Shown here: positions 62,031 through 63,623 of the stretch, in pieces
Layout: each line of letters opens with the position of its first letter
How positions within the stretch are numbered: the first letter of the stretch is position 1
From: Streptomyces coeruleorubidus
Lineage (GTDB): Bacteria > Actinomycetota > Actinomycetes > Streptomycetales > Streptomycetaceae
DNA: 64,000 nucleotides
Assembly: GCF_028885415.1 (NCBI RefSeq)
Contig: NZ_CP118527.1
Span: 5,766,001 to 5,830,000 of the forward strand
Reading direction: 5' to 3'
Made by a program: the position numbers and the translations under genes
Notes under the pieces: generated by a model
What the model saw: only the letters and a program-made list of their open reading frames with translations
The model's database searches: none
Told to the model about the DNA's origin: nothing

Positions 62031-62498
62031 CTAGTGCACGCAGAACTCGTTTCCCTCCGGATCCTCCATCACGACCCATGCCGTGCCCTGGTCCGCCACC
62101 CGCCGCAGCACGCTCGCCCCGAGCCCCTCCAGGCGTACGACCTCGTCCTCGCGCGTCCCTCGATCGGGGTGCAGGTCCAGGTGGAGCCGGTTCTTGACCG
62201 TCTTCGGGTCCGGTACGCGCTGGAACAGCAGCCGCCGTCCCAGCCCGGTCCCGCTCTCCTTGTCGTACGGGTCGTCGGGATGCCGTACGGCGACCAGGTC
62301 CCGGAAGGCGTGCCGACCGTGGAACTCGACGGTGAGCTCGGCCGGTACGGCGCCGGAGTCCAGCAGTCTCTCGATGAGCGCGTTGTTGTCCTCGACCTCG
62401 TAGTGCAGCGCGGCGGCCCAGAAGTCGGCCTGTGCGTGGGGGTTCGCGCAGTCGATGACGATCTTCCAGTGGAGGGGGTGCGGAGCGTTGTCTGCCAT
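62031..62498 (-). CDS. VOC-family (glyoxalase/bleomycin-resistance fold) protein
   Basis: A 155-residue protein from ATG 62498, flush with the 21-bp palindrome at 62499-62519. It has the two beta-alpha-beta-beta-beta units of the fold: LHWKIVIDCANPHAQADFWAAAL and RLHLDLHPDRGTREDEVVRLEGLGA, ending in WVVMEDPEGNEFCVH. The second unit keeps HLDL and the terminal E of DPEGNEFC, possible metal ligands. It may detoxify or bind a small molecule. The absence of any leader before ATG and the TATAAG 7 bases upstream suggest a leaderless transcript. Confidence 0.88.
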   Translation of the reverse strand: MADNAPHPLHWKIVIDCANPHAQADFWAAALHYEVEDNNALIERLLDSGAVPAELTVEFHGRHAFRDLVAVRHPDDPYDKESGTGLGRRLLFQRVPDPKTVKNRLHLDLHPDRGTREDEVVRLEGLGASVLRRVADQGTAWVVMEDPEGNEFCVH

Positions 62499-62519
62499 GT
62501 AACCACTTATATTGGTTAC
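62499..62519. promoter_or_regulatory. 21-bp palindromic bidirectional promoter/operator
   Basis: GTAACC-N9-GGTTAC occupies exactly the space between ATG of the VOC gene (62496-62498) and GTG of the CGNR gene (62520-62522). The A/T-rich centre provides TATATT (62508-62513) for the rightward gene and TATAAG for the leftward one, each 6-7 bases from the start codon, the distance of a -10 element to +1. Both transcripts would begin at their start codons. Confidence 0.7.
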
Positions 62520-63131
62520 GTGAACGAGCGCGCAACGGAAACGCCGGGCCTGACGCTGACTTCGTACGGGGGAAGAACCTTCCGCTTCGACCCCGGCGCC
62601 CTGTGCCTGGAACTGCAGACGACGGGCGGCCCCGGGGAGTTCGCGCGGTACGAGGTGCTGCACGAGCCCGTCGACCTGGTCGCCTGGACGGCGCGCAGCC
62701 GCCTCCCGGACGACCTTGACATCACCGTCACCGAGGGCGAGCTGGAGCGCGTCCGCGCCCTGCGCGACGTCGTGTTCCAGCTCGCCGCCGACCGCGCCCA
62801 CGGCCGCCCGCTGCGAGCCGCCCACCTGGACGTCGTCAACGCCGCCGCGGCCGGGCCCCCGTTGGTCGCCCGCATTGAGCCGGACGGCACCCGCGCCTGG
62901 GCCCCGGGCGCCACCGGAGCCCACCTGCTCTCCACGATCGCCCGGGACGCGATCGACCTGTTCACCGGCCCCTACGCCCACCGCGTCCGCGAGTGCGGCG
63001 CGCACAACTGCTACCTGCTCTTCGTCGACACCTCCCGCCCGGGCCGCCGCCGCTGGTGCGCGATGGAGCACTGCGGCAACCGCGAGAAGGCCCGGGCACA
63101 CCGGGCCCGGGCCTTCCCTAGGAAGCCGTAG
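62520..63131 (+). CDS. CGNR zinc-finger (ABATE-domain) regulator
   Basis: A 203-residue protein from GTG 62520. The N-terminal ABATE domain (residues about 15-145: RFDPGALCLELQTTGG, DLVAWTARSRLPDDLDI, ALRDVVFQLAADRAHGRPL) is followed by the CGNR zinc finger with CGAHNCYLLFVD, RRWCAMEHCGNREKARAHRAR, which supplies four cysteines and the CGNR motif. Such proteins are predicted DNA-binding stress regulators. It may bind the palindrome between itself and the VOC gene and control both. The 3' end overlaps the converging HxlR gene by 14 bases. Confidence 0.9.
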   Translation: MNERATETPGLTLTSYGGRTFRFDPGALCLELQTTGGPGEFARYEVLHEPVDLVAWTARSRLPDDLDITVTEGELERVRALRDVVFQLAADRAHGRPLRAAHLDVVNAAAAGPPLVARIEPDGTRAWAPGATGAHLLSTIARDAIDLFTGPYAHRVRECGAHNCYLLFVDTSRPGRRRWCAMEHCGNREKARAHRARAFPRKP

Positions 63132-63587: not shown

Positions 63588-63623
63588 GGTTACAAGAGGG
63601 AACCGACCCTCATTTGCGTAACC
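63588..63623. promoter_or_regulatory. Possible HxlR operator between regulator and MFS gene
   Basis: GGTT-N9-AACC (63588-63604) is an inverted repeat in the 91-base divergent intergenic region, and a GTAACC follows at 63618-63623. The GGTTAC/GTAACC words are the same as the arms of the palindrome at 62499-62519, with different arrangement. Placement suits a repressor of both genes. Confidence 0.5.

Follow-up and report, generated by a model that had tools for sequence, protein, structure and literature searches.

The 21-bp palindrome that separates the divergent genes of a VOC/glyoxalase-like protein and a CGNR/ABATE regulator in Streptomyces coeruleorubidus (positions 62499-62519) is likely, judging from its sequence and conservation, to combine the operator of an autoregulating CGNR/ABATE repressor with a pair of overlapping -10 elements from which two leaderless mRNAs would be made. 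The window analyzed here is a stretch of 64,000 nucleotides, part of one 9.41-Mb contig. As read from the sequence, the palindrome is the entire gap between the ATG of the VOC gene on the minus strand and the GTG of the CGNR gene on the plus strand, in the local order ...gtctgcCAT-GTAACCACTTATATTGGTTAC-GTGaacgag.... This placement, given in a preliminary description of the window, was confirmed by the coordinates of the following features.

62031..62498, minus strand: VOC/glyoxalase-like protein, 155 aa, ATG start (PF18029, E 1.3e-27)
62496-62498, minus strand: VOC start codon, ATG
62499..62519, no strand: palindrome GTAACC-ACTTATATT-GGTTAC, proposed CGNR operator over both core promoters
62499..62504, no strand: left arm GTAACC, falling between the -35 region and the -10 on the CGNR side
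62511-62506, minus strand: putative VOC -10, TATAAG, ending 7 nt before the ATG and overlapping the plus-strand -10 by 4 bp
62508..62513, plus strand: putative CGNR -10, TATATT, ending 6 nt before the GTG and fitting TANNNT
62514..62519, no strand: right arm GGTTAC, abutting the CGNR start codon
62520-62522, plus strand: CGNR start codon, GTG
62520..63131, plus strand: CGNR/ABATE regulator, 203 aa, GTG start (PF07336, E 9.3e-25; PF11706, E 2.1e-19)
62530..62535, minus strand: proposed VOC -35, TTGCGC, with an 18-bp spacer, inside CGNR codons 4-6

The CGNR protein carries an ABATE domain followed by a CGNR zinc finger, both above the Pfam cut-offs, and the CGNR residues are present in its translation. 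There is no room for a leader between the proposed operator and the start codon of this gene. The palindrome by itself is not significant, since 6-bp arms around a 9-bp centre are common: 50 were counted in the window and 28 to 49 in five shuffled versions. What is beyond chance is the exact placement of the palindrome, its uniqueness in the genome and its conservation. The perfect GTAACC-N9-GGTTAC occurs at a single site in the 9.41-Mb genome, and the reversed-pattern control at none. When one mismatch is allowed in TAACC-N9-GGTTA, the genome holds 16 sites versus 9 for the reversed control, so that a few further genomic sites are possible. One of the 15 other near-matches in this genome (L051, about 3929091-3929109, one mismatch) is located upstream of another CGNR paralogue, where it stands among several GTAACC/GGTTAC repeats.

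Loci for comparison were collected by similarity of the CGNR protein in several overlapping searches and by one DNA-motif scan. They comprised the best matches from a search of 150 genomes of the genus (L002-L031 and further regions), the matches with E 1e-40 or better in 42 of 394 genomes of the class and in 112 of 392 genomes of the genus, 69 loci from a scan of named genomes, and 21 loci from a strict motif scan of 297 genomes whose pattern ends in RTG. Removal of duplicates left 203 distinct loci, of which 185 had been gathered without use of the motif. At least 14 of the 18 fixed bases of GTAACCnnTTATAnTGGTTAC are present in 177 of these 185 loci, at least 16 in 165 and all 18 in 66, and an ATG or GTG follows directly in 173 of the 177 motif-bearing loci. 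A control stretch taken from within these genes scored at best 7 to 11 out of 18 in all 110 loci so compared. The preliminary description had named loss of the arms beside a retained gene pair as evidence against it; this comparison was made and did not refute it. Eight of the 185 loci score below 14 (L150, L151, L169, L171, L174, L175, L202 and L234), with 29% to 67% identity; L150 is a fragment at a contig end. These eight loci, among them a fairly close relative (L202, 62% identity), count against the proposed explanation, as do L155, L226, L230 and L231, in which the motif is not directly followed by a start codon. Apparent decay or assembly error is seen in these last four loci, as well as in the short remnant-like VOC frame of L047 and the short CGNR frames of L115 and L207. 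Some 61 of the 69 relatives from named genomes bear the name Streptomyces; the remainder are Kitasatospora, Micromonospora, Spongiactinospora, Frankia and one Acetothermia bin. The families bearing the motif include Streptomycetaceae, Micromonosporaceae, Streptosporangiaceae, Frankiaceae and those coded f17, f19 and f46.

A -10-like hexamer in each direction and a -35 inside each opposite gene had been proposed for this element, and both proposals hold in part. The consensus reported for S. coelicolor is NTGACC for the -35 and TANNNT for the -10 (PMC4895711). TATATT on the plus strand fits the latter, and across loci the CGNR direction reads TATAnT at -12 to -7. The VOC hexamer, mostly TATAAN across loci, matches five of the six bases of TATAAT, and is not a TANNNT because the last T is missing. 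For the counts of hexamers, GCA codons, VOC codons and Shine-Dalgarno words, the loci in which a start codon stands at the motif were classed as 136 with the VOC gene adjacent, 24 with it distant and 31 with it absent, L033, L088, L119 and L162 being VOC-adjacent but classed as distant. A -35-like hexamer for the CGNR promoter was found in 8% of the 136 adjacent loci versus 10% in shuffled sequences, i.e. without excess. A scan of synonymous sites in the 5' codons of the VOC gene gave no peak where this -35 would be expected, A/T richness being present at several early codons (0.68 at codon 2, 0.41 at codon 4 and 0.57 at codon 6). On these two scans, a -35 for the CGNR promoter is not recognisable.

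This CGNR promoter without a recognisable -35 could mean that the CGNR protein activates one direction through a MerR-like distortion and blocks the other, and SoxR is reported to be an activator of such kind at a bidirectional promoter (PMC12825309). However, the palindrome is centred on the -10 (at about -11) and not on the spacer between -10 and -35, and a dimer bound over its extent from -21 to -1 should block the polymerase. We regard such activation as unlikely. The lack of a -35 on the CGNR side would also be compatible with a -10-like centre that is simply the AT-rich middle of an operator, the real starts lying upstream and giving leaders without Shine-Dalgarno sequence. This is decidedly unlikely in view of the base conservation: in the 96 VOC-near loci, positions -10 and -9 do not vary (every locus has T at -10), and T is found at -7 in 95 and at -12 in 92, although palindrome positions -12 and -10 are not complementary to each other. 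Moreover, leaderless genes of bacteria, and most of all those of actinobacteria, are marked by a TANNNT some 12 bp ahead of the start (PMC3160421). In S. coelicolor, 21% of the primary starts are leaderless (PMC4895711).

Leaderless translation of both genes is the reading to which the start regions point. The palindrome offers no space for a Shine-Dalgarno sequence, and none of the 140 adjacent VOC starts and none of the 191 CGNR starts is preceded by a Shine-Dalgarno-like word. Such a word precedes 8 of the 13 VOC starts placed at least 15 nt away, by an automatic placement that is partly wrong: for the 24 loci concerned, six starts were not found, four lie beyond the palindrome, and several of the 13 counted look misplaced. 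More Shine-Dalgarno words are visible by eye at distant VOC starts. From this distribution, the promoter appears to serve a leaderless VOC gene in most loci and a leadered one in some.

In the VOC direction, a -35 can be proposed within the CGNR coding sequence. The scan required at least four of the six bases of TTGACA, and found a hexamer in 38% of the 136 adjacent loci, 25% of the 24 distant and 3% of the 31 VOC-less loci, versus 8.5% in shuffled sequences; 54 of the 59 matches stand at the 18-bp spacer. GCA encodes 90 of the 100 alanines at CGNR codon 5 of the adjacent loci versus 11 of 89 at the other codons from 2 to 15, and 96 of 2590 alanines in the CGNR gene bodies. At four-fold degenerate third positions of the VOC-bearing loci, A or T is present in 137 of 159 cases at codon 5, in 18 of 120 at codon 4 and in 13 of 99 at codon 6. 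The corresponding baseline is 7% over the gene bodies; at codon 5 of VOC-less loci, A or T is present in 5 of 22 cases. In loci without GCA, such as L071, TGGACG is found in the place of the -35. A VOC -35 of the form TTGC-N18-TATAA within CGNR codons 4-6, which shows itself by a rare GCA codon and is new here, is therefore probable. Counting against it, the exact TTG is missing in 55 of the 140 adjacent loci. After correction for kinship (189 rows of the same classes), the association between the TTG element and the presence of VOC is not significant, the independent pairs being too few: five were supported, with means of 2.7 going the same way and 1.0 the other. CGNR codon 7 (62538-62540) shows a second excess of A/T, found at 43 of 65 four-fold sites when VOC is present and at 4 of 23 in VOC-less loci; the VOC promoter may have an upstream element here. 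A third operator half-site, GCAAC, within the CGNR gene was also considered and is disfavoured, because CAA is present at this place in 2 of the 31 VOC-less loci while the palindrome stays.

The palindrome is linked to the CGNR gene. The strict scan of 297 genomes returned 21 sites, one per genome, and 21 of the 21 RTGs start a CGNR orthologue, the RTG itself being demanded by the scan pattern. The ATG of VOC lies at 0 nt from the motif in 101 of the 140 VOC-adjacent loci, at 1 nt in 36 and at -1 nt in 3. Among the 31 loci in which VOC is absent, i.e. gives no tblastn match at 1e-5 within the region examined (the short remnant of L047 included), at least five of six bases are kept in the left arm of 29 and in the right arm of 25; leaving out the motif-selected loci (n=27), the numbers are 25 and 21. 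Since both arms mostly persist where no VOC was found, the motif belongs to the CGNR gene. The left arm is located between the CGNR -10 and the expected -35, so that its retention is not explained by the core promoter alone and points to an operator. In 12 VOC-less loci of one genus (f19/g53; L178 and L240-L250), the divergent gene reads as RidA (PF01042, 74.7 bits for the one full protein tested), its ATG being mostly about 9-10 nt from the palindrome. Elsewhere it encodes a MerR-type regulator (PF00376) or an apparent oxidoreductase (PF07992, below its cut-off and from a fragment only). In L023, about 200 nt separate the two divergent genes, and a copy of the palindrome stands at either start codon, the second copy being directly before the VOC ATG.

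A similar organization is found in paralogous CGNR groups. One of them (L055, L251-L280), matched in 39 of 150 genomes, has AACC-N9-GGTTCC directly before the ATG in all 30 loci examined, with TAAGGT or a similar TANNNT hexamer 6 nt before the ATG, as in the main group, and a second AACC/GGTT box upstream. In several loci of another group (L058, L281-L310), CTAATGG...CCATTAG stands just before the start, a similar layout with different half-sites. This group supports a general design weakly, because the palindrome is less regular and absent from other loci. From the linkage between motif and gene we infer that the CGNR protein binds DNA sequence-specifically and is the reader of the operator.

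The same shared leaderless promoter might instead have its arms read by another regulator, such as the neighbouring HxlR protein. The intergenic region of HxlR itself contains GGTTAC-N24-GTAACC (63588-63623), with the same hexamers in opposite order, and this is kept in 8 of 8 relatives inspected out of 27 loci with an HxlR match. However, an HxlR homologue was found in the flanks (up to 2.5 kb) of 27 of the 69 named loci, whereas the palindrome is present in all those listed except L150 and L151. A CGNR gene follows at every strict motif site, and the CGNR paralogue group has the same core. HxlR is thus very unlikely to be the reader of 62499-62519, as the palindrome is present at named loci without an HxlR homologue in these flanks. 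The 36-bp element at 63588-63623, between the HxlR regulator gene and a divergent MFS transporter gene, is perhaps an operator of HxlR. That the palindrome acts as an RNA hairpin, within longer leaders that begin in the opposite genes, is highly unlikely: the arms could pair in either transcript, judging from the sequence, but at the six arm pairs of 191 loci 127 changes are one-sided versus 3 compensated, and these arm changes break the pairing. Symmetric arms, one-sided tolerance of change and the position over both -10s rather suggest a protein operator. The arm centres are about 15 bp apart and not one helical turn, which weighs somewhat against the proposed operator, as the fit of a dimer to them is not obvious.

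In the mechanism that we propose, RNA polymerase would use the two overlapping -10s in the palindrome centre to initiate at the first nucleotide of the one or the other start codon, giving two leaderless mRNAs, VOC leftward and CGNR rightward. A CGNR dimer would bind the TAACC/GGTTA arms, cover both -10s and repress both genes, until released by a ligand of the ABATE domain, which might be the VOC substrate. The VOC direction would rely on a weaker -10 and a probable -35 (TTGC) in CGNR codons 4-6, while the CGNR direction would have a better -10 and no recognisable -35, which would suit a low-level autoregulated gene. The palindrome covers both predicted promoters and is present at one site per genome at high stringency. 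That a single element could be both the promoter of two leaderless genes and an operator, most likely that of the CGNR protein, had been suggested beforehand, and is supported by the conservation and the CGNR linkage. The companion idea that two polymerases could not be bound together holds, and mutual exclusion is physically plausible. Mutually exclusive expression, also predicted, does not follow: the five E. coli bidirectional promoters tested are reported as non-competing at basal activity, competition arising once one direction is strongly activated (PMC12825309), and a repressor centred on the palindrome should shut both directions together.

The bidirectional promoters of E. coli with symmetric -10 elements (Warman et al. 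2026, PMC12825309) likewise have overlapping -10s on opposite strands and physically exclusive polymerases. Their common start-site distances are 18, 10 and 23 bp; the distance here would be 22 bp if both transcripts begin at the start codons, near the 23-bp class. Unlike them, the present element has two predicted leaderless mRNAs, a palindromic operator over the shared -10 and nothing else in the gap. Leaderless genes of Streptomyces likewise have a TANNNT ending 6 nt before the start and no Shine-Dalgarno sequence (PMC4895711, PMC3160421). The CGNR side has this spacing and the VOC side approximately so, with a TATAAN devoid of the final T. In contrast to other such genes, two that point away from each other would be served by a single 21-bp element, and each start codon adjoins the operator. 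The only solved relative found for the CGNR protein is Jann_2411 (3h0n, E 1.9e-5), which likewise combines PF07336 and PF11706 and was proposed to be a dimeric, ligand-responsive DNA-binding regulator (PMC2954205). That account, in the parts available to us, names no operator, whereas a 21-bp operator is proposed here. In the crtR-crtE system of Corynebacterium glutamicum (PMC5401885), a repressor controls a divergent operon as well as the gene that encodes it, reportedly a leaderless one, perhaps also through a single site over the promoter. It differs by a MarR-type regulator, a 114-nt leader for the divergent operon and a longer gap.

We would give even chances to a general design for actinobacterial CGNR/ABATE regulators, in which a palindromic, -10-bearing operator ends on the start codon of the leaderless regulator gene. 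In many cases a divergent gene of the detoxification type (VOC or RidA) would share this operator and have its -35 in the opening codons of the regulator. The operator would outlast an exchange of the partner; a partner that has moved away would have acquired a Shine-Dalgarno leader or, in one genome, a second operator copy. Our literature search returned one structural paper but no operator for the CGNR/ABATE family. This widespread family now gains a concrete predicted operator, with a cognate protein and a DNA to be used in assays. With promoter, operator and both translation starts within 27 bp, the arrangement may represent a minimal natural system for testing repression, polymerase exclusion and translation of leaderless mRNAs at once. 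The -35 embedded in the codons of the opposite gene, if true, would constitute a regulatory constraint on synonymous sites.
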